Assembly: GCF_023897065.1 (NCBI RefSeq)
Contig: NZ_JAMHIV010000049.1
Location: 1-53,011 of the forward strand
From: Crossiella sp. SN42
GTDB taxonomy: Bacteria > Actinomycetota > Actinomycetes > Mycobacteriales > Pseudonocardiaceae
Direction of reading: 5' to 3'
Length of the DNA stretch: 53,011 bases
The notes under the pieces were generated by a model that saw nothing but the letters and a program-made list of their open reading frames with translations, searched no databases and was not told where the DNA came from. Below, in pieces: positions 39,603 to 53,011 of this stretch (the first letter of the stretch is position 1; each line of letters starts with the position of its first letter). A program made the position numbers and the translations under genes.

Positions 39603-39728
39603 GGAGGCAGTCAACCCGGTCACCGGATCGCCGCACACCCGGAGAAACCCTGGGACAGGGCGAATAACCACCTAGGTGACAGCCAGCCCGGCGAGCGGGG
39701 GTCCGGGGGCGGAGCCCGCCGGCTGGGG

Positions 39729-39749
39729 TGTGGGGGCTGGGCCCCCACA
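39729..39749. terminator. Short hairpin beside the att region
   Basis: TGTGGGGGC and GCCCCCACA form 9-bp perfect arms with a 3-nt loop. It lies just left of the larger tRNA terminator and may belong to it. Confidence 0.5.
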
Positions 39750-39759
39750 AATGCCAAAA

Positions 39760-39799
39760 GGCCGATGTGGCCCGCGTTTTCTGCGGGCACACATCGGCC
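39760..39799 (-). terminator. Terminator of the original tRNA-Pro gene
   Basis: Long arms GGCCGATGTG...GCCCGC and GCGGGC...CACATCGGCC enclose a T-rich loop, and on the minus strand a TTTT run follows. The position, 12 bp past the tRNA 3' end, indicates that it terminated the chromosomal tRNA-Pro transcript before the element inserted. Confidence 0.8.
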
Positions 39800-39809
39800 A
39801 ATCGGACTT

Positions 39810-39852
<43 letters not shown>

Positions 39853-40013
39853 GGAAAGTTGTCGCCGCATCAACCTGCCGAGATCGGCTGCTCAGCGGTG
39901 GTGCGCCTTCCACTCACGCCCGTGGTCGTTCGCCGATGAGCGGGTCGGTTGTCACCCGCTTCGTCACTCACCAGCTCTGCCGGCATCTGTCCGGCTTCCC
40001 GTGCAGAATGATC

Positions 40014-40043
40014 GCTGTAGCCGGAGGGGGCACCGGCTACAGC
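40014..40043 (-). terminator. Hairpin after the HTH-PP2C operon
   Basis: GCTGTAGCCGG and CCGGCTACAGC are perfect 11-bp arms with loop AGGGGGCA. It lies 36 bp past the phosphatase stop on the minus strand. The rest of 39,853-40,079 shows no gene. Confidence 0.6.
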
Positions 40044-40079
40044 TGATCGACGACGGTGCTGGGACAGGTGGGATCACCT

Positions 40080-40922
40080 TCACTTGCGGGCGGAGCCAGC
40101 CGCCGCGTTGAGCCGCACATAGGCCGCGGCCGCGTCATCGAACGCCTTCCCACGCGGCCACCTCTGGCCGTCCTCGTCGCTCTGCTCAGCCTGCCGTGTC
40201 CGCCGAATCAGTTCCTCTGGTCCCTCCTGATCCAGCAGGGACAGCAGGCCATTCCAGTCCAGCAGTCCGAAGCGATCCACCAAGCGCGTCGCGCCGTCGC
40301 TCAACAAGGCGAGTGCCCTGATCTGTCGAACTTCGGCCCGCCCAACAATCGATTCGTCTGCGGCGTCAGGATTGGCGCTGGCAACCCAGAAACCATTGGA
40401 TCGATTTCGGTGGTTGCGCATCTGTTCAATGAATCTCTTGAGTGCGAGCGCATGCTCTTCTGATCCATTGGGGATGGCGTCCATGTCGCGCCGATAGATT
40501 CTTGCGAAATCATCTTCGCGTGCGTCTGTAACAACCTCGATGTGGCTGGAGGATTGAAGTAGGAGAACTGAATCGGCGAGCGCAAGGTAATCAATCTCAT
40601 GATTCCCGATTCGGGCGATCAGCACTGTAGCGGATGGGGTTCCTGGGTGGTTCAGATCGCACTCGTCCTTGTGCATGTCGGCAACCGCTGATATCGAACT
40701 GCGCAACACCGACCGTAGGTCATCATGCGGAGAGGTCAGCAGGTTTGCTAGCAGTTGAGCGCCGAGTTGGTGTGAATACCAGGCCACGCCGTGTCTACAC
40801 CCACTATCGGCTCCGGCGGAACCTGCGCCGTCCAGAAGAACAGCAGCGCCCGGCACCACGCCGACGAAATCTTCGTTTGCGCGATCGGTTCGGGCTGACT
40901 CCGTTGCGATGCTGACCTGCAC
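40080..40922 (-). CDS. PP2C-family protein phosphatase
   Basis: A 280-aa metal-dependent Ser/Thr phosphatase. Motifs: RANEDF (16-18), VLLDGAGS (Asp31-Gly32), a mid-chain ALADSVLLL, ALLSDGATR and, near the C-terminus, KAFDDAAAAYV, so the metal-binding aspartates are all present. No membrane segment. The gene is AT-richer than the chromosome (about 50-57 per cent GC by eye in parts), a sign of separate origin. It starts (ATG 40922) 2 bp after the HTH gene and should be co-translated. A phosphorylated target is not known; no kinase is nearby. Confidence 0.85.
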   Translation of the reverse strand: MQVSIATESARTDRANEDFVGVVPGAAVLLDGAGSAGADSGCRHGVAWYSHQLGAQLLANLLTSPHDDLRSVLRSSISAVADMHKDECDLNHPGTPSATVLIARIGNHEIDYLALADSVLLLQSSSHIEVVTDAREDDFARIYRRDMDAIPNGSEEHALALKRFIEQMRNHRNRSNGFWVASANPDAADESIVGRAEVRQIRALALLSDGATRLVDRFGLLDWNGLLSLLDQEGPEELIRRTRQAEQSDEDGQRWPRGKAFDDAAAAYVRLNAAAGSARK

Positions 40923-40924
40923 TC

Positions 40925-41767
40925 TTACCCCTCAGTGTGTAGGTACATGGGCGTAACGAGATCGACCTTCAGGGGCTCGCGGGTGTCAAAATCGTACTCA
41001 GTACGAACAAGAGTCGAGAAGTTCTTGTCCCTGACCTCTCCGTACATTTCAGCAATCCTGGTCGACAGCATTTTGACGACTCCTAGGCTGCCCGGAGGGT
41101 GAATCCCTGTGAATACAATCAGAGACCCATCTCCGTCTGGGCGGTTCAGGCGACCAAGGTATGCGAAGTCGTACGGCTCATGAGGGTCCCGATCCCATCC
41201 GGAGCGATATGCTGCCCCAGTGGTGCTATCCCGGATAGTCCAAGGGCCATTTTCCTCGCGCTCAAACTGCAAGAACGGATCGGACGCGAGAACGGAGGCC
41301 ACAGGTTGGGAAATTCGTGGACCGCAAATCACGACCAAGTTGCCTCGGTTTAGATTGACTGCGCCGCCAACTGGAATGTGCTCAGAGGTGAAGCCGAGTC
41401 CTAGGGACTGTGCCAGCTCCCCAAGTTTCTGTGTGGCCGCAACATCCTCCATCGCAACAACGGGACGGCCTTGAATGGTGTCTTGCTTAAGCGGTGTGAG
41501 TACTGTGAAGGAGCCGATTCCAAGAAACGCACCTTCGGGTGGTGGCCCTGCGCGTCGAACCTGGTGAATACGCGCTTTGCTGAGGCCAACCTCTTCGGCA
41601 ATTGCTGCAAGGGAAACCCCTTGTTCGTTTAGCTCTTGGATCTTCCGTCGACGAAGTTGGGCTAGCTGAGTGACCTCCTCCTGAGCGGCATTCAGCCTGA
41701 CTGTGGCGGCCCTGATCAGCTCGTAGGGGTCCCCGATACGCGAAATTCTCTCAACTTCGTTGCTCAA
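40925..41767 (-). CDS. HTH regulator with C-terminal sensor-like domain
   Basis: A 280-aa protein. A long N-terminal helix (about 18-48) leads to a sigma-4-like HTH (GVSLAAIAEEVGLSKARIHQVRR, 50-72). A linker is followed by a domain from about 100 to 270 with RGNLVVICGPRISQPVASVLASD (Rossmann-like beta-loop-helix, 141-163) and FAYLGRLNRPDGDG...VFTGIHPPGSLGVV (201-231). I do not know this domain; ligand sensing is inference. It is first in a two-gene unit with PP2C and is divergent from the element's main promoter, which carries repeats it may bind. ATG 41767. Confidence 0.75.
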   Translation of the reverse strand: MSNEVERISRIGDPYELIRAATVRLNAAQEEVTQLAQLRRRKIQELNEQGVSLAAIAEEVGLSKARIHQVRRAGPPPEGAFLGIGSFTVLTPLKQDTIQGRPVVAMEDVAATQKLGELAQSLGLGFTSEHIPVGGAVNLNRGNLVVICGPRISQPVASVLASDPFLQFEREENGPWTIRDSTTGAAYRSGWDRDPHEPYDFAYLGRLNRPDGDGSLIVFTGIHPPGSLGVVKMLSTRIAEMYGEVRDKNFSTLVRTEYDFDTREPLKVDLVTPMYLHTEG

Positions 41768-41791
41768 CAGCTTCTCCTCTCCGGGGCCAGT

Positions 41792-41896
41792 CTAGCCCCC
41801 TAGACGCACCCGGATACCCCCCCTTGACACCGGGTGGCGGCGCTGCGTACCTTCTGTCGTGTACCCCCCCTAGACGAAACCGGATCGTCAAGGGGG
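41792..41896. promoter_or_regulatory. Repeat-rich divergent control region of the element
   Basis: A 20-bp direct repeat beginning CCCCCTAGACG and ending CCGGAT occurs at 41796-41815 and 41866-41885 (18 of 20 identical, 70 bp apart). An inverted pair CCCCCTTGAC (41819-41828) and GTCAAGGGGG (41887-41896) is nested with it. The first inverted arm contains the -35 box of the rightward promoter. These look like operators for a regulator, most simply the adjacent HTH protein (inference). Confidence 0.65.
41824..41853 (+). promoter_or_regulatory. Putative main rightward promoter of the element
   Basis: TTGACA at 41824-41829 is a consensus -35 box; TACCTT at 41848-41853 is a fair -10 box, with an 18-bp spacer. 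It points into the long rightward operon. Confidence 0.6.
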
Positions 41897-42405
41897 ACTA
41901 CTCGAACCGCTGGTCCCGTACCGGGCCAGCGATACGCAGCACCGCCGCTCACGCGGCATCAGGCGGTCGCCCCTAGTGCTGGGGCCAGTGCGCACGACTC
42001 CGGTCCTGCATGCGTACTCGCCACGTGAGATAAGGCCCCGTTTTCGGGGCCACACAGTGGAAACACGGTCCGGACGTTCCGCGGTCAACCACCGCGTCGC
42101 TGCGCAACCGCGAAGACCTCACCCCGGTGAGCGAGCGTGACCAACGGCCCCACACGGCGGGTCAGCGGCAGCACCAATCCGCGCAACGTCCGGCACCGCA
42201 AGGACACGTTTTCCCAGCTCACCACCCATCGCGGTGGTTGGCGTGTCCACCGGCCGGCATCGGCTCCTCAACGAGTCCGGCCCAGAAGCTGCCAAGCCCC
42301 ACCCGTGTTCGTGGCTTGCCGGTCGCGCACCACCGAGTTCGACGGTGCGCGATCGCGGGAGGCCCACGAGCCCCACCCCCAACTCGTCTACCTGGAGGTT
42401 TCGTT
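41897..42405 (+). other. Untranslated leader of the element operon
   Basis: About 500 bp without a convincing gene. It holds two hairpins: CGCTGG-CCCG at 41908-41918 pairing to 41922-41931 (one-base bulge), and GGCCCCG-TTTT-CGGGGCC at 42034-42051. A weak open frame is reported separately at 42137. It may be a structured leader RNA, an origin-like region or both; nothing in it decides. Confidence 0.4.
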
Positions 42406-42409
42406 GTGA
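42137..42409 (+). CDS. Doubtful small ORF, 90 aa
   Basis: A GTG-initiated frame rich in Arg and Pro whose TGA overlaps the next start as GTGA, the same geometry as genuine neighbours. Against it: only a weak GGTGA ribosome binding site, a looser third-position GC bias, and no recognised motif. It could be a non-coding leader. Confidence 0.25.
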   Translation: MTNGPTRRVSGSTNPRNVRHRKDTFSQLTTHRGGWRVHRPASAPQRVRPRSCQAPPVFVACRSRTTEFDGARSREAHEPHPQLVYLEVSL

Positions 42410-42702
42410 GCAGCACACCCACCGCCAGGCAGCTTCATGCGTTCTGGCTGGCCAGCGATGACGCCGCCGCGCGGTACAAGGAGGCCGCCCAGCAGGCCCG
42501 GGTTCTGGCCGAACGCGCCACCGCGCTGGCGCGGCTGGTCGCTCAGCACCCCAGCCGCGTGGACTACCGCGCCGCCTTCCGCAAGACCCTCACCGACTCC
42601 GCCGCCGCCGCGCAGCGCGCCCAGAGCGCGCACCGCAGCTGGCAGGCCACCACCTTCCGCGCTGACTCGGCGTGGACCAAGACCCAGGCAGGTGCCGCGT
42701 GA
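42406..42702 (+). CDS. AICE hypothetical helical protein, 98 aa
   Basis: An alanine-rich protein predicted to be almost fully helical (AARYKEAAQQARVLAERA, AAAAQRAQSAHRSW). No motif is recognised. GTG 42406 with TGGAGG 7 nt upstream; the open frame extends left but without a better start. It ends in a GTGA overlap with the next gene and opens the chain of coupled small genes. Confidence 0.7.
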   Translation: MSSTPTARQLHAFWLASDDAAARYKEAAQQARVLAERATALARLVAQHPSRVDYRAAFRKTLTDSAAAAQRAQSAHRSWQATTFRADSAWTKTQAGAA

Positions 42703-42968
42703 ACGACTTCCCTTACGTCCCGGATTTCCTCTCCTTCACCGAACTCAGGTTCGCCCCGGACGGCCTGTTCGAGGCCGACGTTGATGCGCTGCTGGCCGAG
42801 GTCACCTCGGACCTGGCGGAGCACCCGGAGCCGACCACCGCGGTGCAGGACGGCACCGCCCGCGCCAAGCGGGACCGCCGCATTGTGCAGCGCCAGCTTG
42901 GCGCGACCGTCCGTGTTCTCCGCGTCTACCAGCCGGTGACCGGCCAGGCCGGGACGGAGGCTGCGTGA
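42699..42968 (+). CDS. AICE hypothetical protein, 89 aa
   Basis: An acidic N-terminus (NDFPYVPDFLSFTELRF), then a charged helical middle (RAKRDRRIVQRQL). Unknown function. GTG 42699 overlaps the previous stop, and its own TGA overlaps the ATG of the DUF3307 gene, so all three are coupled. Confidence 0.7.
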   Translation: MNDFPYVPDFLSFTELRFAPDGLFEADVDALLAEVTSDLAEHPEPTTAVQDGTARAKRDRRIVQRQLGATVRVLRVYQPVTGQAGTEAA

Positions 42969-43405
42969 TGTCGACCGCCGCGATCACCTTCGCCACCGTC
43001 GCCCCGGCCCTGCTGGCCGCGCACCACGTTGGCGACTACTGGTTGCAGACCACCCACCAGGTTGAGCACAAGGGCTGCCCCGGCCGGTCCGGCTGGCTGG
43101 CCGCCGCCCGGCACGTCGCCTCCTACACCGCGGCCACCGCCGCGTTCGTCGGCATCGTCTGGGTCGCCTTCGGCCTGGACATCACGCCGCTGGGCTTCCT
43201 GCTCGGCCAGCTGGTCTCGGCGGGGACGCACCTGGTCATCGACCGCCGGACCCCCTTGCGTGCCTTCGCCGCTCTGCTGGGCCGGATCGTGCCCGGCAAG
43301 CTCGGCTACTACGACAACGGGGGAGCCCCGCACCTGGACCAGGCCGCCCACCTGGTGTGGCTGTTCGTCGCCGCGCTGCTGACCTCACTGGTCGGGGGTG
43401 CGTGA
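42968..43405 (+). CDS. DUF3307-like membrane protein
   Basis: A 145-aa protein. The pattern LLAAHHVGDYWLQTTHQVEHKG, an early His/Asp/Gln motif next to a membrane helix, followed by three more hydrophobic segments and the conserved HLVIDRRT, is that of DUF3307 proteins, which recur in AICEs and phages. Function unknown. ATG 42968 with GGAGG 7 nt upstream; stop and next ATG overlap by one base. Confidence 0.75.
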   Translation: MSTAAITFATVAPALLAAHHVGDYWLQTTHQVEHKGCPGRSGWLAAARHVASYTAATAAFVGIVWVAFGLDITPLGFLLGQLVSAGTHLVIDRRTPLRAFAALLGRIVPGKLGYYDNGGAPHLDQAAHLVWLFVAALLTSLVGGA

Positions 43406-43608
43406 TGGGCGTGCTCCGCTGGCTGACCACTACCGCCGAAAGCCCGACCTTGACCGCCAAGGCCAAGAAAGCCGCCCGGACCAAGCTCGATGACGTCGAA
43501 CTGGCCATGGGCAACGGGCTGCGCTGCCAGATCTGCGACAAGCCGCTGGTCAACAGGTCTCAGCGCTCCAACGTCCACCCGCGCTGCGCCCGGGGCGGAG
43601 GTCTGTGA
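43405..43608 (+). CDS. AICE small zinc-ribbon-like protein, 67 aa
   Basis: A basic N-terminal helix (AKKAARTKLDD) precedes a CQIC...HPRC set that could bind zinc. Unknown function. ATG 43405 overlaps the previous stop and TGA 43606-43608 overlaps the next ATG. Confidence 0.7.
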   Translation: MGVLRWLTTTAESPTLTAKAKKAARTKLDDVELAMGNGLRCQICDKPLVNRSQRSNVHPRCARGGGL

Positions 43609-43787
43609 TGGCCAAGCCCAAGCAACTGGTGCACGAGAGCGTCAAGTACAGCTGGTGGAACGGCAAGGTCACCATGGCCTGCGGCCTGGTGTTCGAGCCT
43701 GGCACCTCTGCCCCGTACCTCTTCGTCAGCGTGACCTGCCCCGGCTGCCTGGCCGCCCGGCGCAAGAAGTCGGGCTGGTGGTCGTGA
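43608..43787 (+). CDS. AICE small protein with CxxC, 59 aa
   Basis: Contains Trp pairs and a single CPGC knuckle near the C-terminus (VTCPGCLAARRKK), plus one Cys upstream. Unknown function. ATG 43608, one-base overlaps with both neighbours. Confidence 0.65.
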   Translation: MAKPKQLVHESVKYSWWNGKVTMACGLVFEPGTSAPYLFVSVTCPGCLAARRKKSGWWS

Positions 43788-44218
43788 TGGCCCGCCAGTA
43801 CCCGCTGCACGAGATCGTTCTTCCCTGGAACGGCCAGACCGCGTTCTGCCGCGGTCGCCTGGACGGCCTGCCGGTCTTCGGCTGGCGCGGACGCCCCGGC
43901 GCGGTCCCGCCCGGCTTAGCCACCTTCCGCCAGCTCCGCGCGGTCGGCCTGCGCCCCGGTGGAGCGGACCCGGTGGCCCTGCTGGTCTTCCGCCACCGCA
44001 AGGCATTCCGCCGCGAGGAAGTCTGCTCGCTCTGGCTGGTCGCCAAGGCCAAGCCGGTGCGGCCGATGACCGCCCGCAAACAGTTCGCCCTCGAGAAGGC
44101 CCTCGCGGCACTGCGCTTCTGCCCGCAATGCCGGCAGGACGCGGGCTACCGCCTCCCCACCTCCTACGGCAAGTGCTGGAACTGCTTCACCACCAACGAG
44201 ATCGGAGCCGCAGCATGA
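43787..44218 (+). CDS. RRQRL-motif-type zinc-binding protein
   Basis: A 143-aa protein. FGWRGRPGAVPPGLATFRQLRAVGLRPGG corresponds to the PxGLATRRQLRxxGLRPGG core of the AICE zinc-binding family, here with FRQLRA instead of RRQLRA. VRPMTARKQFALEKA and a C-terminal zinc ribbon CPQC...CWNC follow. The family is common in actinobacterial mobile elements; its role is unknown. ATG 43787. Confidence 0.75.
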   Translation: MARQYPLHEIVLPWNGQTAFCRGRLDGLPVFGWRGRPGAVPPGLATFRQLRAVGLRPGGADPVALLVFRHRKAFRREEVCSLWLVAKAKPVRPMTARKQFALEKALAALRFCPQCRQDAGYRLPTSYGKCWNCFTTNEIGAAA

Positions 44219-44424
44219 ACACCAGGCAACTGCCCGCCAGCAGACTCACCCACGGCACCTGGGTCCACTACAACGGCACGGACTACCAGATCACCGAGAT
44301 CGAGACGGAGTTCGCCGGGGAGTTCAACGGCAGCTTTCAGGAGTTCGACTACATGTTCTACCTGCGCGGCGGACCGCGCATCGGCGCGGCCTACAACGCC
44401 CTGTTCACCGTCACGAAGTGGTGA
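44215..44424 (+). CDS. AICE hypothetical protein, 69 aa
   Basis: A small beta-rich protein (GTWVHYNGTDYQITEIE...FYLRGGPRIG). No recognised motif. ATG 44215 overlaps the previous TGA as ATGA. Confidence 0.65.
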   Translation: MNTRQLPASRLTHGTWVHYNGTDYQITEIETEFAGEFNGSFQEFDYMFYLRGGPRIGAAYNALFTVTKW

Positions 44425-44431
44425 GGCAGGC

Positions 44432-44494
44432 ATGGCACGCCCCTACCTCCACTCGGCCCTGCTGGCCGTCCTTCGCGGCCACCCTTGCCGATGA
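44432..44494 (+). CDS. Possible 20-aa peptide
   Basis: An ATG frame reads MARPYLHSALLAVLRGHPCR with GAGGCAGG upstream. It lies in the 130-bp gap between two genes of the operon. Too short to judge by codon use. Confidence 0.25.
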   Translation: MARPYLHSALLAVLRGHPCR

Positions 44495-44554
44495 GACCAG
44501 CACAGCAGCCTAAGAACCACATCTCGACTATCCAAAAAGGACGGTGCCAGATCC

Positions 44555-44707
44555 ATGATGGTCGACTGCGACGCCTGTGACGGCCAGTACCGCGACCGCG
44601 ACGACCCCAACTACTGCGGACGCTGCTGCGGCTACGGCTACCTGGACCTGAACGACTTCAACCAGCCCGAGCGCGACAGCGAGCCTCCCGGGGACTGGGA
44701 CTACTAA
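44555..44707 (+). CDS. AICE Cys-rich small protein, 50 aa
   Basis: The protein has CDAC...CGRCC, a probable zinc knuckle, and a very acidic C-terminus ending GDWDY. Unknown function. Two ATG codons occur in tandem at 44555 and 44558. Upstream AAAAAGGA is a possible but distant ribosome binding site. Confidence 0.6.
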   Translation: MMVDCDACDGQYRDRDDPNYCGRCCGYGYLDLNDFNQPERDSEPPGDWDY

Positions 44708-44734
44708 CCACCTGCAACACCGAAGGGGCACAAC

Positions 44735-44899
44735 GTGATCACCATGAATTGCCTGGGCTGCGGCCAGATCCGGGACTGCGACGGCGCGGGCTACTGCGAC
44801 TGGTGCGCGGGAGATCCGGAGATCGACCCCCGCGCGGACCTCGACGCCTGCGAGGACTGCGGCGAAGACAGCTTCGACTGCGTGTGCGACGAGAACTGA
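44735..44899 (+). CDS. AICE Cys-rich zinc-ribbon protein, 54 aa
   Basis: Three cysteine pairs (CLGC, CDWC, CEDC) plus a final CVC in an acidic sequence suggest one or two zinc ribbons. It resembles the preceding small protein in composition. GTG 44735 with GAAGGGG 6 nt upstream; ATG 44744 is the alternative. Confidence 0.6.
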   Translation: MITMNCLGCGQIRDCDGAGYCDWCAGDPEIDPRADLDACEDCGEDSFDCVCDEN

Positions 44900-44988
44900 A
44901 CGATCGGCCCCGGACCGGTGGTCTCCGACCAAGAAGCCCCACCGGCCCGGGTCTCCCAACCGACACATGATCACTCAGGAGACCCCAA

Positions 44989-45207
44989 ATGCTACGGCCC
45001 ACCAAGATGACCGCCACCGCCCTGATCGTGTGGCTACTGCTGACCGTGCTGTCCCCGCTGGCAAAGACGCTGGCCATCACCGCCGGACTGCTCGCCGCAG
45101 TTCTTGACGGGATTGCCCAGGCATCTGCCCGTGGCCGCACCCACGTCCGCACCGCGCCCCACCTCAGCAAGCAGGCCGCCTCGGCCGCGGTGGGGAGCAT
45201 CCAATGA
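44989..45207 (+). CDS. AICE small membrane protein, 72 aa
   Basis: One or two membrane helices (ALIVWLLLTVLSPLAKTLAITAGLLAAVL) and a basic C-terminal tail. It could be a spread (Spd)-type protein, which in conjugative actinomycete plasmids are small hydrophobic proteins; this is inference. ATG 44989 with AGGAGA upstream; ATGA overlap with the next gene. Confidence 0.65.
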   Translation: MLRPTKMTATALIVWLLLTVLSPLAKTLAITAGLLAAVLDGIAQASARGRTHVRTAPHLSKQAASAAVGSIQ

Positions 45208-45419
45208 CCGCGCTCAACCACAACGCCGCCTGTAGCGGCTACAGCGCTGGCTCCCTGGAGCGCTGCGCGTTCCGGTCGGCGTTCTGGGTTCGGCACGCCG
45301 CGGACACCGACTGGGGCACCCACGCCTGCGCCGCGCACTTGGCGCAGATCGTGCGGTGGGTGGCCAGCGGACACGACAACTGCGACCCGATCGTGCGCGT
45401 GCTGGCAGGTGCCCGATGA
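45204..45419 (+). CDS. AICE hypothetical protein, 71 aa
   Basis: Contains scattered Cys and His (CSGYSAGSLERC, HACAAHLAQIV) that might bind metal. Unknown function. A 15-bp palindrome CTGTAGC-G-GCTACAG lies at 45230-45244 inside the frame. ATGA overlaps at both ends. Confidence 0.65.
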   Translation: MTALNHNAACSGYSAGSLERCAFRSAFWVRHAADTDWGTHACAAHLAQIVRWVASGHDNCDPIVRVLAGAR

Positions 45420-45652
45420 ACACCGACACCATCCCCACCGGCACCAGCCTGCTCAGGCTGATGTGCCACCTGCTCGCCACCCAGCCCGCCTGGGACGCGC
45501 CGGACACGGCCAAGGCCGACTGGTTCGACGAGAAGGCCCGCGTGCTGGAGCTGATCGCGGCCACCGACCGGCCGGATGCCACCTACATCGCCCAGCGCGC
45601 CCAGTTCGCCCGCGAGATGGCCGCGGAGTGCCGCAAGGCGGGTGAGCAGTGA
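45416..45652 (+). CDS. AICE hypothetical protein, 78 aa
   Basis: A soluble helical protein (SLLRLMCHLLATQPAWDAPDTAKADWFDEKARVL). No motif recognised. ATG 45416 overlaps the previous stop. Confidence 0.65.
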   Translation: MNTDTIPTGTSLLRLMCHLLATQPAWDAPDTAKADWFDEKARVLELIAATDRPDATYIAQRAQFAREMAAECRKAGEQ

Positions 45653-45822
45653 TGGCACTGGAGATCACCACCCAGGGCACCTGCCGCCACTGCGGCAGTG
45701 ACCTCGCGCAGGCCGTCGAGTCCGGCCGTACCCGCCACTGGGTCCACTACCTCACCCGCCTGATCCGCTGCGCCTCCGGCGAGACCACCGCTGAGCCCGT
45801 GACCCTGGAGGTTGTGCGATGA
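45652..45822 (+). CDS. AICE small CxxC protein, 56 aa
   Basis: CRHC near the N-terminus, a His-rich middle (RTRHWVHYLTRL) and one further Cys give a possible zinc site. Unknown function. ATG 45652; one-base overlap with the previous gene and ATGA overlap with the next. Confidence 0.6.
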   Translation: MALEITTQGTCRHCGSDLAQAVESGRTRHWVHYLTRLIRCASGETTAEPVTLEVVR

Positions 45823-46706
45823 CCAGCGCCTACCCCGCCCCCATCGATGACCTGCTGCCCCGGGCACAGCGGCTGGCCGCCGAGTCCGGCCGGACCCCGT
45901 CCCGCAACCACCTCATGCGCGAACTCGGCATCGGCGCGAAGAAGGCCACCGCGCTCCGGGAGAAGCTGACCGGCGAGACCGGACAGCCCACCGGAGCGTC
46001 CACCGCCCCGGACCCGGCACCCCGGCTCTACGCCCTGCGCGCCCCGGAGTCCGAGGCAGCGCAGGCCGAGGCCAGCGAGCCTGCGGCCGATCACGAGCCG
46101 ACGGCGACCACGCTGGTCAGCACGGTCGCGAACCCGGAGCCGACCACCCCGGCCCCGCCGGTGACCGCGCCGGTCGCGCCGACGCTGGCCCAGCGCATGC
46201 GCGGCTGGTTCGCCCCCACCGCGCCGACCACCCCGGCGGCCCCGGCCCCGGGTGCGCGCCCGGTCCGGCGGGTCCGCTCGTGGCCGGTGCTGCTGCTGGC
46301 CCTGCCCGCCTTCGTCGCGATCTGGGGCGGCTGGGTCGGCCTGGGCAAGCTCACCGGGTTCGGCCCGGTGGACTTGCTCCCGGGGATCGCGGGCGGGTTC
46401 GTCCTCAACACCGCGATCACGCTGCCCATCGGGGTGGAGGCGTACGCGGCCTTCGCCCTGCGGGTCTGGCTCTCCGGCGCGACCCGCAGCGCCAAGGCCC
46501 GCCGCTTCGCCAAGTTCTCGGCGGTGGGCTCGCTGCTGCTGGGCATGGCCGGACAGGGTGCCTACCACCTGATGACCGCCGCCGGGATGACCCAGGCGCC
46601 GTGGCAGATCACGGCGTTCGTCTCCTGCCTGCCCGTGGTCGTTCTCGGCTGTGGCGCGGCCCTGGCCCACCTGCTCCACCACGACGAGGAAGGGGACAAC
46701 CAGTGA
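45819..46706 (+). CDS. Membrane spread-like protein with N-terminal winged-helix
   Basis: A 295-aa protein. Residues 10-50 (RAQRLAAESGRTPSRNHLMRELGIGAKKATALREKL) resemble a winged-helix seen in AICE proteins. A Pro/Ala/Thr-rich linker (about 55-150) leads to three or four membrane helices (SWPVLLLALPAFVAIWGGWVGLG, FVLNTAITLPIGVEAYAAFALRV, SAVGSLLLGMAGQGAYHLM, ITAFVSCLPVVVLGCGAALAHLL). The position just before traB and the topology suit a DNA-transfer or spread partner. The GTGA overlap with traB supports this. Confidence 0.7.
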   Translation: MTSAYPAPIDDLLPRAQRLAAESGRTPSRNHLMRELGIGAKKATALREKLTGETGQPTGASTAPDPAPRLYALRAPESEAAQAEASEPAADHEPTATTLVSTVANPEPTTPAPPVTAPVAPTLAQRMRGWFAPTAPTTPAAPAPGARPVRRVRSWPVLLLALPAFVAIWGGWVGLGKLTGFGPVDLLPGIAGGFVLNTAITLPIGVEAYAAFALRVWLSGATRSAKARRFAKFSAVGSLLLGMAGQGAYHLMTAAGMTQAPWQITAFVSCLPVVVLGCGAALAHLLHHDEEGDNQ

Positions 46707-48946
46707 CCAGCACCGACACCACGACCCTCGTGGGCACCCCCGACCCCGACGAGTCCGCGCTGATCCTCGCCGCCGCCGACCCGGCCACCGGCACCGTGGA
46801 GAAGGCCCCGGCCGTCTCCAACATGGTGCCGCCGCACCGCAACCCCGTCCCGGCCGAGGCCGAGGCGGAGGTGCTGGAGGGTGAACTGCTCCCCGGCCGG
46901 GCGGTCGCGGTCGACCAGCCCGACACCACCGGCCGCCCGATCTGGGAGGGCTACCGCAATGCCAAGCGGCAGCCGCTGATCGCGCCGTGGCTGCGCTCGT
47001 GGGAGACCTTCCAGGGCACCGCGGCCTTCGCATGCCGGCATTACCTCCACACCGCCGCCTACCACGCCCTGCGCGTGCCGCTGTATGCCCTGCATCTGCT
47101 CACCCGCGCCCCGCGCGGCCTGGGCCGGGCACTGGGTGCGGCGTGGCGGTGGCTGGCCGATGCCGAGGCAAAACCGTTGCGCGCCAGCGCTGTTGCCCGT
47201 GATGACGCCGCGGAGTACTTGCGGTTGTCCTTGCAGCGCAACCTCCGCGTGGCCACCCGGCTCGGCCTGCTGGGCGCGGCGCTGCTGGGGGTGCTCATCG
47301 GCTGGTGGATGCTGCCGGACCCCGTCCCGGTGTGGGTGCGGTGGGGGCTGTGGGCGCTGGTGGCCGGGGGCATCGCCGCCCTGGGCCTGGCCGGAACCCC
47401 GGCCGACAAGCCCTTTGCCACCCGCGCGGTGGTCTCCACCGAGGTCGCCAAGCTCACCAGCGACATCGTGATCCGGGCCTTGTCGGCGGTGGGCATCTCC
47501 GCGATGAACCCTGCCCGCGGTACTGCGATCACCTTCCCGGCCCCGATCACCCGCGACGGCCCCGGCTGGCGGGCCGATGTCGACCTGCCCTACGGGGTGA
47601 CCGCGGTCGACATCATCGAACGCCGGGACCGCCTGGCCTCCGGTCTGCGCCGCCCGCTGGGGTGCGTGTGGCCTGAGCCTGCCAGCGAGGAACACGCCGG
47701 ACGCCTGGTGCTCTGGGTCGGCGACCAGCCGATGAACAAGGCCCGCCAACCGGCGTGGCCGCTGCTGCGCGGCGGGGAAGCCGATGTGTTCAAGCCGCTG
47801 CCCTTCGGCAACGACCAGCGCGGCCGGGCGGTGTCCATCCTGCTGATGTTCGGCAACATCCTCATCGGCGCGATGCCCCGCTACGGCAAGACCTTCGCCC
47901 TGCGGGTGCTGCTGCTGGCGCTGGCGCTGGACCCGCGGGTGGAGATGCGGACCTTCGAGCTCAAGGGCACCGGTGACCTCTCGCCGCTGGCCAAGGTCTC
48001 CCACCACTACGCCTCCGGTGCCGATGACGGCACGATCGCGGCCTGCGTGCAGTCGCTGCGGGAGGTCTACAAGGAGCTGGAGCGGCGGGCGAAGACGATT
48101 TCCGGGCTGCCCAAGGACATCTGCCCGGAGAACAAGGTCACCCCGCAGTTGGCCAGCAACCGCAAGCTGGGCCTTCACCCCCTGGCGGTGTCGATTGATG
48201 AGTGCCAGGAGCTGTTCTCCCACCCCGACTACGGCAAGGAGGCCGGGGAGCTGGCCACCGCGATCATCAAGCGCGGCCCGGCCATGGGCATCATCCTCAT
48301 CCTGGCCACCCAGCGCCCGGACAAGGACTCCCTCCCCACCGGGGTGAGCGCGAACGTGGGCATCCGGTTCTGCCTGCGGGTGATGGGCCAGGTCGAAAAC
48401 GACATGGTGCTGGGCACCTCCGCCTACCGCAACGGTGTCCGCGCGACCATGTTCACCCAGTCCGACAAGGGAATCGGCTACCTCGTCGGTGCCGCCGATG
48501 ATCCGCAGATCGTGCGGTCGTCCTATCTGGACGGTCCCGCCTCCGAGCGAGTTTCCGAGCGGGCGCGCGCCCTGCGGGCACACGCGGGCACCCTCACCGG
48601 CCACGCCGCCGGGGAAGACACCGCGCTGGGTGAGGGCGAGCGGCGGGACACCTTGCTGGCCGACGTCGCCGCGGTGCTGGGTGGCGATGAGGCCAAGGTG
48701 TGGAGCGAGACCGTGGTGACCCGCCTGGTCGAGCTGCGCCCCGCGGTCTACGGGGCGTGGGCAGAGCTGGACGGCGGTGGCAAGGCCGCCGCGCTCTCGG
48801 CCGCGCTCAAGCCCTACAGCATCTCCACCGGCCAGGTCTGGGGCACCGACCCCGCCACCGGCAAGGGCGCGAACCGGCGCGGCATCGACCGCTCCGACAT
48901 CACCACCGCGATCGCAGAGCGTGACCGAAAGGCGATCGCGACCTGA
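46703..48946 (+). CDS. FtsK/SpoIIIE-type DNA translocase (TraB-like)
   Basis: A 747-aa ATPase that moves double-stranded DNA between mycelial cells. Two membrane helices lie near 186-232. The motor has Walker A GAMPRYGKT (389-397), Walker B VSIDECQELF (Asp499-Glu500) and a RecA-like TQRPDKDSLPTGVSANVG segment. The C-terminal part (about 640-747) should be the DNA-recognition domain; it ends in a winged-helix-like TDPATGKGANRRGIDR stretch. The clt site this family binds is often next to the gene. GTG 46703 overlaps the previous stop. Confidence 0.92.
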   Translation: MTSTDTTTLVGTPDPDESALILAAADPATGTVEKAPAVSNMVPPHRNPVPAEAEAEVLEGELLPGRAVAVDQPDTTGRPIWEGYRNAKRQPLIAPWLRSWETFQGTAAFACRHYLHTAAYHALRVPLYALHLLTRAPRGLGRALGAAWRWLADAEAKPLRASAVARDDAAEYLRLSLQRNLRVATRLGLLGAALLGVLIGWWMLPDPVPVWVRWGLWALVAGGIAALGLAGTPADKPFATRAVVSTEVAKLTSDIVIRALSAVGISAMNPARGTAITFPAPITRDGPGWRADVDLPYGVTAVDIIERRDRLASGLRRPLGCVWPEPASEEHAGRLVLWVGDQPMNKARQPAWPLLRGGEADVFKPLPFGNDQRGRAVSILLMFGNILIGAMPRYGKTFALRVLLLALALDPRVEMRTFELKGTGDLSPLAKVSHHYASGADDGTIAACVQSLREVYKELERRAKTISGLPKDICPENKVTPQLASNRKLGLHPLAVSIDECQELFSHPDYGKEAGELATAIIKRGPAMGIILILATQRPDKDSLPTGVSANVGIRFCLRVMGQVENDMVLGTSAYRNGVRATMFTQSDKGIGYLVGAADDPQIVRSSYLDGPASERVSERARALRAHAGTLTGHAAGEDTALGEGERRDTLLADVAAVLGGDEAKVWSETVVTRLVELRPAVYGAWAELDGGGKAAALSAALKPYSISTGQVWGTDPATGKGANRRGIDRSDITTAIAERDRKAIAT

Positions 48947-49083
48947 CCGGCCGGGCGCGCTGGGTCTAGCAGCGACCCCCGCTAGACCTAGCGCCCCCGC
49001 TAGCAACCCACATGCCCGCTGATCAGCGCCCTAGTTCCTAGCGGCGTCGGCCGAGGACGGCCGAAAACAGCCCCGGAGGACCT
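48947..49083. other. CTAG-rich spacer after traB
   Basis: Six CTAG tetramers occur within 76 bp (48966-49041), including CGCTAG-AC-CTAGCG (palindrome) and two copies of CCCCCGCTAG. CTAG is otherwise rare at this GC content. The spacer could be an operator cluster, a transfer (clt) or replication-origin site. GGAGGA at its end serves the next gene. Confidence 0.55.
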
Positions 49084-49395
49084 GTGAACCCCCGCAGACC
49101 CGCTATGCCCTTGATCGCCACCACCCTCACCATCGTCACGTTCAGTGATATTGCGCCGCGGCTTTCCGGCTACACCGGGGCCGCGCTGGGCGCACTCGGC
49201 GGTGGCTACGTGCTGGCCTGCACGGCCTTCCCGTTCCGGCCCTGCCGGGCCTGCAAGGGTATGGGCCGCCACCTCAACCGCGGCGTCTTCGGCGGCATCC
49301 GCCTCTGCACCGCGTGCAAGGCCACCGGCCTGAAGCTCCGCGCCGGACGCAAGGCGTGGAACTACCTGCGCCGCACCCGCCGCAACTCGCGCTGA
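49084..49395 (+). CDS. AICE membrane/zinc-ribbon protein, 103 aa
   Basis: Two hydrophobic segments (AMPLIATTLTIVTF and ALGALGGGYVLACTAF) are followed by CRACKGMGRH...CTACKATGLK, a double CxxC ribbon of DnaJ-like type, and a basic tail. Function unknown. GTG 49084 with GGAGGA upstream. Confidence 0.7.
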   Translation: MNPRRPAMPLIATTLTIVTFSDIAPRLSGYTGAALGALGGGYVLACTAFPFRPCRACKGMGRHLNRGVFGGIRLCTACKATGLKLRAGRKAWNYLRRTRRNSR

Positions 49396-49418
49396 TCACC
49401 CTGACCAAGGAGCACGCC

Positions 49419-49694
49419 ATGTCCAGCACCACCCTGTTCAGCGCTGCGGCCCTCGTCCTGGCGGCCGTGGCCGGTCCCACCTCGTGCCAGCCGGGCCAGG
49501 GACGTCCCGCGCCTGCACCGACTGCCCCCACGACCCGGCCGCACCACACCGCGGTTAACCCCGGTGAGTTCGCCACCTCCTGCGACGGGCACGGCCGACC
49601 CTTCAACGTCCGGCCGAACACCCCCGCCGCCCGCGCCTGGGCGGCCAAGGCATGCGCGCACCTCGAACGCGGCCTGAACGATGCGGGCTGGTGA
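49419..49694 (+). CDS. AICE putative small exported/lipoprotein, 91 aa
   Basis: The N-terminus (MSSTTLFSAAALVLAAVAGPTSC) looks like a signal with a possible lipobox at Cys23, although no basic n-region is present. A Pro/Thr-rich linker and a small domain with two Cys (FATSCDG, AKACAHLERG) follow. Unknown function. ATG 49419 with AAGGAG upstream. Its end lies inside the region of possible starts of the primase gene. Confidence 0.6.
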   Translation: MSSTTLFSAAALVLAAVAGPTSCQPGQGRPAPAPTAPTTRPHHTAVNPGEFATSCDGHGRPFNVRPNTPAARAWAAKACAHLERGLNDAGW

Positions 49695-49698
49695 CGTC

Positions 49699-50706
49699 AT
49701 GCACAAGCACACGCGCAACCTGCTGGCCGCCGCCCTGGACACCGCCGCCCGCGGCTGGCCGGTCTTCCCCCTCGCGCGGCGCAGCAAGAAACCCGCCCTG
49801 CACTCCGAGCAGGACTGCCACCGCACCGGGCTGTGCGCCAGCGGGCACCTCGGCTGGGAACAGCGCGCCACCACCGACCCCGACCGCATCCGCACCTGCT
49901 GGACCGCCGGAGACTGGAACATCGGGCTGGCCACCGGCCCGGCCGGGCTGCTGGTCATCGACCTGGACATGCCCAAGTCACCGGATGAGGTCCTTCCGGA
50001 CGGCTGGAACCGGAGGGGGGTTCGCACTGGTGAGGACGTCTTGGCCCTGGTGTGCGAGCGGGCCGGGCAGCCCATGCCGGCAGAGACCCGGACTGTGGCC
50101 ACACCCTCCGGTGGGCTGCACCTGTACTTCGCCCTGCCCAAGGGCGTGCAGCTGCGCAACACCCAGGGCGAGAAGGGCGCCGGTCTCGGCCCGCTCATCG
50201 ACACCCGCGCCGGGGGCGGCTACGTCATCGCACCCGGCTCGACCACGCCGAACGGGACCTACGAGCTGGTCTCCGATCACCCAGTGGCGCAGGCCCCGGG
50301 CTGGTTGGTCCAGGCCCTGACTCCCAAGCCGCCTACAGCCATCTCAGCGGCCTCCCAGGTCGCCGCAGACCGCATGCCGAGCTACGTCCGGGCTGCCGTG
50401 GCCGGGGAGTGCACCAAGGTACGAGCGGCCCAACGGCACGCCCACCAGAACACCCTCTACTGGGCCGGGATCGCACTCGGACAGCTCGTCGGCTCCGGGG
50501 ATCTCCCTGCGGCTACAGCCGAATCTGCCTTGTTCGCAGCCGCAGGCCACATCATCGGAGGCCCGTGCCGGTGCACCGCGGCCATGGTGATCCGCAACAT
50601 CCAGAACGGCCTGCGCGACGGCCAGAAACGCCCCCGCGTCCGGCGGGAAAAGCCTCCGGCCGAGACCAGCGCGCTGTTTGCTGCGCCGGATCGGGGTGCG
50701 GCATGA
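49699..50706 (+). CDS. Bifunctional DNA primase/polymerase (Prim-Pol)
   Basis: A 335-aa archaeo-eukaryotic-type primase-polymerase. Catalytic motifs are visible: WNIGLATGPAGLLVIDLDMPK (Asp88, Asp90), PSGGLHLYF (His141) and DTRAGGGYVIAPGS (170s). A C-terminal helical extension (about 215-335) is of the AICE kind. It would prime or copy the excised element. ATG 49699 is preferred (GGTGA close upstream); ATG 49681, in frame, overlaps the previous gene. It is coupled to the DpdA-like gene by ATGA. Confidence 0.9.
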   Translation: MHKHTRNLLAAALDTAARGWPVFPLARRSKKPALHSEQDCHRTGLCASGHLGWEQRATTDPDRIRTCWTAGDWNIGLATGPAGLLVIDLDMPKSPDEVLPDGWNRRGVRTGEDVLALVCERAGQPMPAETRTVATPSGGLHLYFALPKGVQLRNTQGEKGAGLGPLIDTRAGGGYVIAPGSTTPNGTYELVSDHPVAQAPGWLVQALTPKPPTAISAASQVAADRMPSYVRAAVAGECTKVRAAQRHAHQNTLYWAGIALGQLVGSGDLPAATAESALFAAAGHIIGGPCRCTAAMVIRNIQNGLRDGQKRPRVRREKPPAETSALFAAPDRGAA

Positions 50707-51542
50707 GCGAGCCGACGTTCCTGCTGGGCACCCATCAGCCCAGCTGGTTCCCTCGCGCCGGGGTGCCGCTGTTTGTCTCCGACAGCCGCTTGCGCGCCCG
50801 GCGTACCTTTCCCCGCGCAGCTGCGCCCTGGTGCCTGGACTCTTCGGGGTTCACCCAGCTCCAGCAGCACGGCCGGTGGACGTTCACGCCCCAGCAGTAC
50901 ATCGACCGCGCGCTGCGCTACAGCGAGGAGATCGGCCGCCTGCGCTGGATCGCTCCCATGGATCACATGTGCGAGTGGATCGTGCGCCATGGTGGCCGCC
51001 TGGGGCGCATGGTCTTCGCTGGGACCGGACTGTCCACCGAGGCCCACCTGAACCTGACCGTGGACAGCGTCGCGCAGCTGCGCGACCTCGCCCGCGGCCG
51101 GGTGCACGTCATTCCCGTGGTGCAGGGCGACCAGCAGGAGGACTACGAGCGCTGCGCGCTGTTGTACGAGCGGGCCGGGTTCGACCTGACCCGCGAACCG
51201 GTTGTGGGGCTGGGGTCTGTTTGCAGGAGGCAGGGAACGGTTGAGGCGCATCGGATCATCCAGGCACTGCACGCCCACGGCATCCGCAACCTCCATGGCT
51301 TCGGCGTCAAAACCCTCGGCCTGCTCCGCTACGGGCATCTGCTCACCTCCGCAGACTCCCTGGCCTGGTCCGACGATGCTCGCCGTAAGCAGCGCCCGGC
51401 CTGCGGTCAGGTCCATCCCCGTGGAGCCAAGAACTGCGCCAACTGCCTGCCCTACGCCCTGTCCTGGCGCACCCGCCTGCTCGCCCGGTTGGCCGGGCAG
51501 GCACGCCAAGGCGACCTATTCGACTACCAGGAGGCGGCATGA
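50703..51542 (+). CDS. DpdA/TGT-like putative 7-deazaguanine DNA transglycosylase
   Basis: A 279-aa protein resembling the catalytic barrel of tRNA-guanine transglycosylase and its DNA-acting relative DpdA. CLDSSGFTQL (Asp46) matches the TGT SDSGGFQ motif, VVGLGSVCRRQGT matches the substrate loop, and HGFGVKTLGL...LTSADSLAW places a candidate nucleophile at Asp218. A zinc site is formed by Cys234, Cys245 and Cys248, with His238 nearby. DpdA exchanges guanine for a 7-deazaguanine in phage and genomic-island DNA. Start ATG 50703; both ends overlap neighbours. No preQ0 synthesis genes are in the window. A role in modifying element DNA is inference. Confidence 0.68.
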   Translation: MSEPTFLLGTHQPSWFPRAGVPLFVSDSRLRARRTFPRAAAPWCLDSSGFTQLQQHGRWTFTPQQYIDRALRYSEEIGRLRWIAPMDHMCEWIVRHGGRLGRMVFAGTGLSTEAHLNLTVDSVAQLRDLARGRVHVIPVVQGDQQEDYERCALLYERAGFDLTREPVVGLGSVCRRQGTVEAHRIIQALHAHGIRNLHGFGVKTLGLLRYGHLLTSADSLAWSDDARRKQRPACGQVHPRGAKNCANCLPYALSWRTRLLARLAGQARQGDLFDYQEAA

Positions 51543-51910
51543 CCACGCCCCGCATCCTCATCACCGGTAGCCGGGACTGGAGCGACGTCCGCACCATCCG
51601 GCTGGCCCTGACCAAGGCCCGCAAGCAGTTCCCCGGCGCGGTGCTCGTCCACGGCGCATGCCGCGGCGCGGACCTGCTCGCCGCGCACCTGTGGTGCACC
51701 TGGGGCCTAGCCACCGAAGCACACCCGGCTGACTGGCACGGCCACGGCCGGGCCGCCGGACCGATCCGCAACCGGCACATGGTCGCCCTCGGTGCAGACC
51801 TCTGCCTGGCGTTCCTGCTGCCAACTTCCTGCGGCTCACTCGGCTGCGCCGAACTGGCCGAGGCTGCCGGAATCCGCACCATCCGCATCCAGCCGGGAGA
51901 CACACGATGA
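51539..51910 (+). CDS. SLOG-family protein (YspA/DUF2493-like)
   Basis: A 123-aa Rossmann-fold protein. ILITGSRDWSD at the N-terminus and VLVHGACRGADLLAA in the middle are the SLOG/YspA signature; IRNRHMVALGADLCLAF completes it. SLOG domains bind nucleotides or their derivatives; related proteins occur with mobile-element and conflict genes. Start ATG 51539 overlaps the DpdA-like stop, and its own stop overlaps the next gene, so it is translated with both. Confidence 0.85.
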   Translation: MTTPRILITGSRDWSDVRTIRLALTKARKQFPGAVLVHGACRGADLLAAHLWCTWGLATEAHPADWHGHGRAAGPIRNRHMVALGADLCLAFLLPTSCGSLGCAELAEAAGIRTIRIQPGDTR

Positions 51911-53011
51911 CCGCCATCAACGGCGCAGACCTGCTCAACGAGCTGCACGCCGCGCTGACCCGGTACGTCATCCTCCCGACCCCGCAGGCCGTGGACGCCG
52001 TAGTGCTCTGGATCGCGGCCACCCACGCCCAACCGGCCTGGGCGCACGCCGCACGGCTGGTCATCCGCGCCCCGGAGAAGCGGTGCGGCAAGTCTCGCCT
52101 GCTGGATGTGGTCGAAGCCTGCTGTCACGCGCCGTTCATCACCGTCAACAGCTCGCCCGCGGCGGTCTACCGCTCCATCACCGAGGACCCGCCCACCATG
52201 CTGGTCGACGAAGCCGACACCATCTTCGGCCCCAAGGCCGGGGACAACGAAGACCTGCGCGGGCTGCTCAACGCCGGGCACCAGCGCAACCGGCCCGCCA
52301 AGCGCTACGACGCGGCCAGCGGCGTGGTCGAGTCCATCCCGACCTTCGCCATGGCCGCGCTGGCCGGGATCGGCGCGATGCCCGACACCATCGAAGACCG
52401 CGCCGTAGTCATCCGCATGCGCCGCCGCGCCCCCGGGGAAACCGTTGCGCCGTACCGGCACCGCCGCGACCGGCCGCAGCTTCAACGCATTGCCCGCCAA
52501 CTGCGCGAATGGCTGCGCGCTGATCTGAAGACCTTGGAGGAGGCCGTGCCCGAGATGCCCGTAGAAGACCGCGCCGCCGACACCTGGGAACCGCTGATCA
52601 TCGTGGCCGACCACGCCGGAGGCGACTGGCCAGAACGCGGCCGGGCCGCCGTACTCGCGCTGACCGCCGAATCCAGCGACAACGACAAGGGCTCACTCGG
52701 CATTCGCCTGCTCAAGGACTGCCGCACCGCCTTCGGCCCGCATTTCGCCCTGCCTACTGCGGCACTGCTGGGCAGGCTCAACGGCGACCTCGAAGCGCCC
52801 TGGGCGGAAATGGGCAACAACGGCCTGACCGCCGCCAAGCTCGGCAAGATGCTCGCCGAGTACGGCATCAGCTCCGGCAACGTCCGCTTCGAGGACGGCA
52901 CCCAGCTCAAGGGCTACGAGAAAGCCAAGTTCACCGACGCGTGGGCGCGGTACTGCCCGCTCCCACTCGCTGCGGTTCAGGGCACGGGGGAGAGGGACCC
53001 CCGTCCCAGCC
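51907..53011 (+). CDS. DUF3631 ATPase (partial, runs off the edge)
   Basis: At least 368 aa, open to the last base. A P-loop (RAPEKRCGKSRLLDVVE) and Walker B (PTMLVDEADTIFG) precede a sensor-like region (IEDRAVVIRMRRRAPGE), then the DUF3631 C-terminal helical part (WRADLKTLEEAVPEMPVEDRAADTWEPLI is split over this zone). In AICEs these proteins follow the Prim-Pol and probably act as the replicative helicase-like partner. ATG 51907, ATGA overlap with the SLOG gene. The 3' end is missing. Confidence 0.85.
   Translation, partial: MTAINGADLLNELHAALTRYVILPTPQAVDAVVLWIAATHAQPAWAHAARLVIRAPEKRCGKSRLLDVVEACCHAPFITVNSSPAAVYRSITEDPPTMLVDEADTIFGPKAGDNEDLRGLLNAGHQRNRPAKRYDAASGVVESIPTFAMAALAGIGAMPDTIEDRAVVIRMRRRAPGETVAPYRHRRDRPQLQRIARQLREWLRADLKTLEEAVPEMPVEDRAADTWEPLIIVADHAGGDWPERGRAAVLALTAESSDNDKGSLGIRLLKDCRTAFGPHFALPTAALLGRLNGDLEAPWAEMGNNGLTAAKLGKMLAEYGISSGNVRFEDGTQLKGYEKAKFTDAWARYCPLPLAAVQGTGERDPRPS

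Follow-up and report, generated by a model that had tools for sequence, protein, structure and literature searches.

A DpdA-family gene within the replication operon of an AICE from Crossiella sp. SN42 and its possible dependence on host preQ0

So far, 7-deazaguanine has been described in the DNA of phages and in connection with chromosomal dpd islands, the latter having been surveyed in PMC11888242 (available text). Among phages, activity has been shown for the dpdA genes of 9g and CAjan, CAjan without dpdA loses both its dPreQ0 and its restriction resistance, and phage nt-1 carries a DpdA2 (PMC6884629). Phages with dpdA alone are also known and two of them have been tested: mycobacteriophage Orion, whose host is without preQ0 genes, had no 7-deazaguanine in its DNA, and Salmonella phage 7-11 had a little dADG (PMC6884629); both enter the present comparison by their published description only. 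AICEs replicate in a plasmid-like manner after excision and transfer unprocessed double-stranded DNA, as given in the available text of PMC3218068 and, for the double-stranded transfer, in that of PMC6540685. A direct test of the restriction sensitivity of AICE transfer was not found in a literature search that included the available text of the latter. The word “ribosyltransferase” is absent from the main text of the AICE survey PMC3218068, and the available part of that survey yielded no mention of dpdA between replication genes. Neither queuine nor ribosyltransferase was found in the available part of the AICE cargo survey PMC9513070, and no description of a DpdA in an AICE was found among the matches listed (titles and beginnings of abstracts, with the subscription literature outside the scope), which is not proof of absence.

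The window, that is, the whole stretch of DNA analysed here, is an entire contig (C44; 53,011 b) of the 9.72 Mb genome of Crossiella sp. SN42, a soil-type actinobacterium whose assembly comprises 82 contigs (genome G000). Its element shares with the RepAM/Prim-Pol AICEs described in the available text of PMC3218068 the Prim-Pol and RepAM proteins, a tyrosine integrase and an att site at the 3' end of a tRNA gene, and it has a candidate for their Tra protein. The features of the element are as follows, with G, C and L numbers being our labels for genomes, contigs and loci.

39810..39856, no strand: attL, marking the left end of the AICE; a 47-bp stretch with 98% identity to the tRNA-Pro(CGG) 3' end
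45819..46706, + strand: presumed SpdB-like membrane protein of the AICE transfer module, an open reading frame with homologues in L048, L078 and L114
46703..48946, + strand: TraB-like FtsK/SpoIIIE translocase (PF01580, E 9.9e-5, 22.3 bits, slightly below the 24-bit cut-off)
49084..49395, + strand: small Cys-containing protein, an open reading frame with relatives in L048, L114 and L119-L121
49681..50706, + strand: Prim-Pol, bifunctional primase/polymerase (PF09250, 3.5e-44)
50703..51542, + strand: DpdA-family protein, predicted DNA base-exchange enzyme (PF23859, 3.8e-67; phrog_1279, 3.1e-69; AlphaFold2 pLDDT 94; nearest solved fold 7ui4)
51539..51910, + strand: YAcAr-type SLOG protein (PF10686, 1.3e-16)
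51907..53011, + strand: DUF3631 / RepAM replication protein (PF12307, 1.1e-70), cut by the contig end

The name SpdB-like is our assumption, and the Pfam search returned no match for this protein. Relatives of the TraB-like protein occupy the equivalent position in most other AICE-type loci of the context scan described below. The reading frame of the dpdA gene was confirmed, with an ATG start and 279 aa, and the start-stop overlaps previously claimed with the Prim-Pol and SLOG genes proved to be 4 bp each; a 4-bp overlap is found at every junction in the run Prim-Pol, DpdA, YAcAr/SLOG, DUF3631. Taken as sequence matches, the Pfam assignments of these four proteins are far beyond chance. The YAcAr/SLOG gene, situated between dpdA and repAM, occurs elsewhere among the AICE-type loci only in L048, at another position.

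The preliminary description had placed this operon in an AICE, a reading borne out by att ends in tRNA-Pro, by the presence of Prim-Pol, RepAM and an integrase, and by a genome of the same species in which the site is empty. The chromosomal flank in the window matches that genome (G055) at 97% up to 39646, and the 47-bp piece at 39810-39856 falls within tRNA-Pro(cgg) of G055. The 42-bp att core has one further exact copy in the host genome, located within an intact tRNA-Pro(cgg) at G000:C49:1788-1829. This second copy is directly preceded by an Xis-like HTH_17 protein and a tyrosine integrase (G000:C49:512-1681; PF00589, 1.5e-17), and the chromosomal sequence that follows it matches that of G055 at 97.9%. 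Since both att ends were found and their flanks match G055, the AICE comprises 39810-53011 plus C49:1-1829, and the corresponding site in G055 is empty. The element is thus about 15 kb in size plus the gap between C44 and C49, with its integrase end on C49, and is integrated at the 3' end of tRNA-Pro(CGG).

By HMM comparison the protein is DpdA-like, as had been proposed from its motifs, with a match to PF23859 of 226.7 bits (E 3.8e-67, cut-off 27) and no closer match to another barrel. The TGT-type DS-x-GF motif is present, as DSSGF (D46) in the window protein and mostly as DSGGF in its relatives, and so is a candidate nucleophilic Asp, D218 in SADSLAWS, which is invariant in relatives and is put forward from the alignment together with TGT chemistry. 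We assume for the window protein the catalytic roles of this Asp, of the DSGGF Asp and of the His in the HGFG motif. D46, H198 and D218 are invariant in a 51-sequence alignment, and D46, S47, D87, E91, Q141, G142, G171, C174, R175, H198, G201, D218, S219, W222 and S223 in a 99-sequence one, each including the window protein. The Cys-rich zinc site of the preliminary description stands only in part: the cluster C234-H238-C245-C248 exists and C248 reaches at least 90% conservation in each alignment, but C245 appears in neither conserved list and the zinc models match weakly (Zn_ribbon_3 at 9.7 bits with a cut-off of 27, HVO_0416 at 20.7 bits with a cut-off of 80). The closest named relatives of the protein are from Saccharothrix and other Pseudonocardiaceae.

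Profile comparison with a 7-sequence alignment of 9g-type DpdA gave a probability of 96.4 (E 1.3e-9), and a second comparison 95.3 (E 2.1e-8), against 0.2 (E 0.29) for the control, an integrase alignment. The profile alignment pairs D46, H198 and D218 of the window protein with D72, H196 and D215 of 9g. The AlphaFold2 model (pLDDT 94.0, pTM 0.90) has a sole Foldseek match in the PDB at E<=1e-3, namely 7ui4, the DNA preQ0 insertase DpdA (E 5.5e-7; sequence identity 13%; TM 0.56 when scaled to the query and 0.40 when scaled to the target). An unrelated TIM barrel was rejected, other barrels in the PDB beginning at E 3.3e-3; with no closer unrelated barrel and the Asp kept in relatives, the DpdA/TGT barrel reading holds on both counts. 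PDB sequence searches with the protein or its profile gave chance-level matches only, and those of NCBIfam and PADLOC nothing usable. Family, motif conservation and predicted fold together identify the protein, at the level of sequence, as a member of the DpdA family, and base insertion is its predicted activity.

Among viral models, Foldseek returned 29 matches at E<=1e-3, several of them named queuine tRNA-ribosyltransferase, and also R9TGF0 of Vibrio phage nt-1, which we infer to be the DpdA2 of that phage. Such annotations, together with membership of the superfamily, are what a tRNA-guanine transglycosylase acting on tRNA would lead one to expect, but the best solved fold is that of a DNA enzyme, 7ui4, the gene lies within a DNA replication operon, and queuosine is reported absent in streptomycetes, a family other than the host's (PMC9262613, available text); action on tRNA therefore deserves scarcely any weight. 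As an identity for the protein, the tRNA enzyme was rejected, PF01702 giving no match up to E 1.

The nearest phage counterparts are the mycobacteriophage DpdA proteins of PF23859/phrog_1279 (OSmaximus, Murucutumbu, Larva), which belong to the same family with mostly 42-48% identity among the matches listed, the Pfam assignment having been checked for OSmaximus; they are phage-borne, whereas the window DpdA is encoded in an AICE operon. OSmaximus serves as a stand-in for Orion, both presumably of cluster B1, and Ares, of the same genus as Rosebush, as one for Rosebush. DpdA of the 9g/CAjan/Rosebush group is homologous to the window protein by profile; unlike the latter, however, the 9g, CAjan and Ares proteins are not matched by PF23859, so that the window DpdA looks like the que-less mycobacteriophage type. 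In 9g and Ares que genes adjoin dpdA, whereas the AICE copy is without them. The bacterial dpd islands provide the nearest solved fold (7ui4), and the host of the element has such a DpdA, encoded beside preQ0 genes. Island DpdA is longer (a 436-residue chain in 7ui4) and accompanied by dpdB, in contrast to the AICE copy of 279 aa with neither dpdB nor que genes alongside.

The survey of AICEs that had been proposed established that the gene recurs. An HMM-based context scan located 22 AICE-type loci, spread over 19 genomes from Pseudonocardiaceae, Micromonosporaceae and Streptomyces (genomes fetched twice merged before counting). A locus was taken as AICE-type if Prim-Pol, DUF3631 or DUF3987 was present within 9 kb, in most cases together with TraB and integrase. 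As AICE-like copies had served to build the search query, the counts should not be read as prevalences, and the class is assigned by gene content for every element but that of the window, which has att ends. The replication partner of the AICE-type dpdA is DUF3631 or DUF3987, the exact 4-bp Prim-Pol/DpdA overlap occurs in 10/22 loci, and, among the 19 AICE-type loci covered by a tRNA scan, 17 have a tRNA gene past the integrase, the exceptions being L118 and L120. Three of the 22 loci have a cytosine-5 methylase-like gene, plausibly another anti-restriction gene, within 2.5 kb of dpdA (Pfam-checked in L048). Across 150 genomes of Pseudonocardiaceae dpdA lies within 3 kb at 3/71 DUF3631 loci, and it is therefore optional.

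AICE copies occupy three places in a quick tree of 87 rows, from which short rows (4), duplicates (8), the four twice-fetched loci L055, L061, L078 and L080, as well as L264-L272 and 67 of 80 viral loci, were left out. Seventeen fall within a 20-row group (support 89), a second group consists of 4 Streptomyces rows (support 98, starred), and L048 stands among VUT-type rows (support 97, starred), a place that is unsure because its branch is long. A single origin of the AICE dpdA was rejected, the tree needing 6 label changes of which at least 4 are forced by starred branches. Given these three places, AICEs probably acquired dpdA on more than one occasion.

Elsewhere in the family the gene has other neighbours. 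VUT genes (PF02592) are taken here to be the YhhQ family, following a queuosine-salvage note on plasmid VUT genes. Of 85 classified genome loci, a figure that includes re-fetched duplicates, 39 have a VUT gene immediately upstream of dpdA, and none of these 39 has TraB or AICE replication genes within 9 kb. E. coli YhhQ (COG1738) has a part in preQ0 transport (PMC5372724, available text). Conversely, VUT is found within 9 kb of dpdA in 0/22 AICE-type loci; the split is not absolute, since two viral VUT loci (L155, L168) have a TraB-like match. For the best 80 of 202 IMG/VR loci, the neighbours within 2.5 kb of dpdA are VUT in 21, que genes in 5 and neither in 54. PF23859 dpdA lies beside que genes in viral contigs L181, L193, L197, L216 and L221, and hence does co-occur with preQ0 synthesis genes, and VUT or que neighbours across PF23859 tie the family to 7-deazaguanine metabolism. 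The AICE copies themselves appear, within 9 kb, to have no precursor supply of their own.

Two observations concern VUT-dpdA loci. In L052, L065, L070 and L073 (G016, G022, G044, G108) a QueC gene is situated some 47-52 kb away, possibly as part of one large element using a late precursor; the QueC of G044 (L089) keeps the canonical signature and has no QueE or QueD within 18 kb. A Nocardia plasmid DpdA directly after a VUT gene (L095 6007-7272) bears a C-terminal helix-turn-helix-like extension (weak matches).

That preQ0 would have to come from the host had been anticipated in the preliminary description, which proposed a check for queCDE and folE homologues. The searched part of the element (38000 on) has no que gene, no que or VUT gene having been found near dpdA in window 38000-53011, and the homologues are present on host contig C56 as a folE2-queDEC locus. 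It comprises folE2 (4.1e-59), queD (2.7e-39), queC (6.3e-73), a VUT-family (VUT-type transporter) gene and queE, the last matching radical SAM at 9.3e-7 and named from motif and place. Divergent from these genes, two DndB-like dpdB genes flank a dpdA whose product matches 7ui4 at 2.1e-118; dpdA, dpdB and preQ0 genes at one locus, the mark of a dpd island, are thus found on C56 and not in the AICE. The host genome has no PF01702 match above the cut-off, that is, no canonical TGT, as against 14/14 control genomes which have one, and its only TGT-like gene is the host dpdA, below that cut-off; preQ0 there is therefore unlikely to serve tRNA. PF23859 dpdA occurs at five places in this genome, C44, C32, C12, C25 and C56 (L003, L048, L046, L047, L045), in two AICE-type, one VUT-type and two other contexts. 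A gene of ~312 aa adjoining the host dpdB-dpdA-dpdB (L044 8888-9826), with no Pfam match at E 0.01, is a candidate for a further part of the actinobacterial dpd locus. At L044 15511-18001 a repeat-like reading frame runs into a Cas3-like protein, by eye a possible CRISPR array near the dpd locus.

Chromosomal dpdA/dpdB plus queCED-folE2 are carried by 7/19 AICE-type genomes, namely the window's host and six more (tblastn; the merged span of dpdA in one of the six, L250, contains a stop codon). This would suit an active enzyme with another target or use than general anti-restriction, either marking host or competitor DNA or adding the host's mark so that the AICE passes a chromosomal dpd system as self. 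We consider this unlikely, for in 12/19 AICE-type hosts no such dpd locus was found, and by eye no dpd restriction genes were recognised adjoining the locus of the window's host within 18 kb. Base-exchange chemistry is reversible in principle and the host possesses its own DpdA, so that the enzyme might instead strip a host mark from element DNA by replacing host-made preQ0 with guanine, or might use another purine. Relatives that adjoin a preQ0-type transporter or que genes are a better fit to insertion, however, and such reverse use seems very unlikely.

QueE was used as the marker of preQ0 supply across hosts. QueC alone was rejected as a marker, PF06508 also covering defence paralogues (PMC13329287, available text); most of the lone QueC proteins that were checked retain the canonical signature, so some genomes scored as without preQ0 may be misjudged. 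A queE match is found in 9/19 AICE-type dpdA genomes (8 without the weak one in G167, 4.8e-10) and none is detectable in the remaining 10/19, absences which could be overcounted because genes may be missing from draft assemblies. Within the 25 genomes of the genus to which G059 belongs, queE is present in 4/4 genomes with AICE-type dpdA vs 3/21 others, the latter including G200 and G204 with dpdA fragments only (p 0.0028; ancestry uncorrected). The corresponding figures for the Pseudonocardiaceae sample are 3/7 vs 6/143 (p 0.0047; ancestry uncorrected), two of the three positives being from one species, that of G000 and G055, and for any PF23859 match 5/34 vs 4/116 (p 0.029; ancestry uncorrected). 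The difference between AICE hosts (9/19) and VUT-class hosts (2/12) is not significant (p 0.086).

The ten hosts without a queE match would be expected if dpdA were an idle passenger, a carried gene inactive where preQ0 is absent, for which Orion offers a precedent (PMC6884629) and with which broken copies agree (L133 frameshifted, L053 also broken). Against this, dN/dS is 0.15-0.55 across 5 pairs of AICE dpdA copies, the motif residues are invariant, the 4-bp overlap is kept in 10/22 loci and the window's host has preQ0 genes; idleness is quite unlikely.

We regard it as fairly probable that the dpdA gene encodes a DNA base-exchange enzyme of the AICE, serving self-marking against restriction with host preQ0. 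The sequence-level basis consists of family, fold, motifs, the 4-bp overlap, the AICE ends, the host preQ0 pathway and recurrence, and each step past homology and context is inferred. With the preQ0 pathway encoded by the host, the element may be able to evade restriction by marking its own DNA. Weighing against this reading are the 10/19 hosts with no queE match, the optional nature of dpdA at DUF3631 loci, the unmodified DNA of Orion and the failure of PF23859 to match the 9g, CAjan and Ares proteins. Upon excision and replication of the AICE, Prim-Pol, DpdA and RepAM would be produced together. D218 of DpdA would then displace guanine in element DNA, preQ0 from the host pool would go in, and the modified double-stranded DNA would resist restriction in the donor or the next host. 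Having no transporter gene nearby, AICE copies would depend for their function on a host that synthesises or takes up preQ0. The fuller proposal, that the AICE hypermodifies its own DNA through a DpdA translationally coupled to the primase and loading host preQ0 into freshly synthesised AICE DNA, and that AICEs are in this way parasites of the precursor pool belonging to host dpd loci, is put forward tentatively, at somewhat less than an even chance.

Here the gene for the enzyme forms part of the replication operon in conjugative elements that transfer their DNA double-stranded, a form which restriction enzymes could cut. An AICE dpdA in a preQ0-encoding host without canonical TGT offers a natural system for the question of dpdA alone, which Orion left in a host without preQ0 genes. 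If true, the proposal would provide a conjugative counterpart to phage 7-deazaguanine anti-restriction, and would bear on how actinobacterial gene flow passes restriction barriers.
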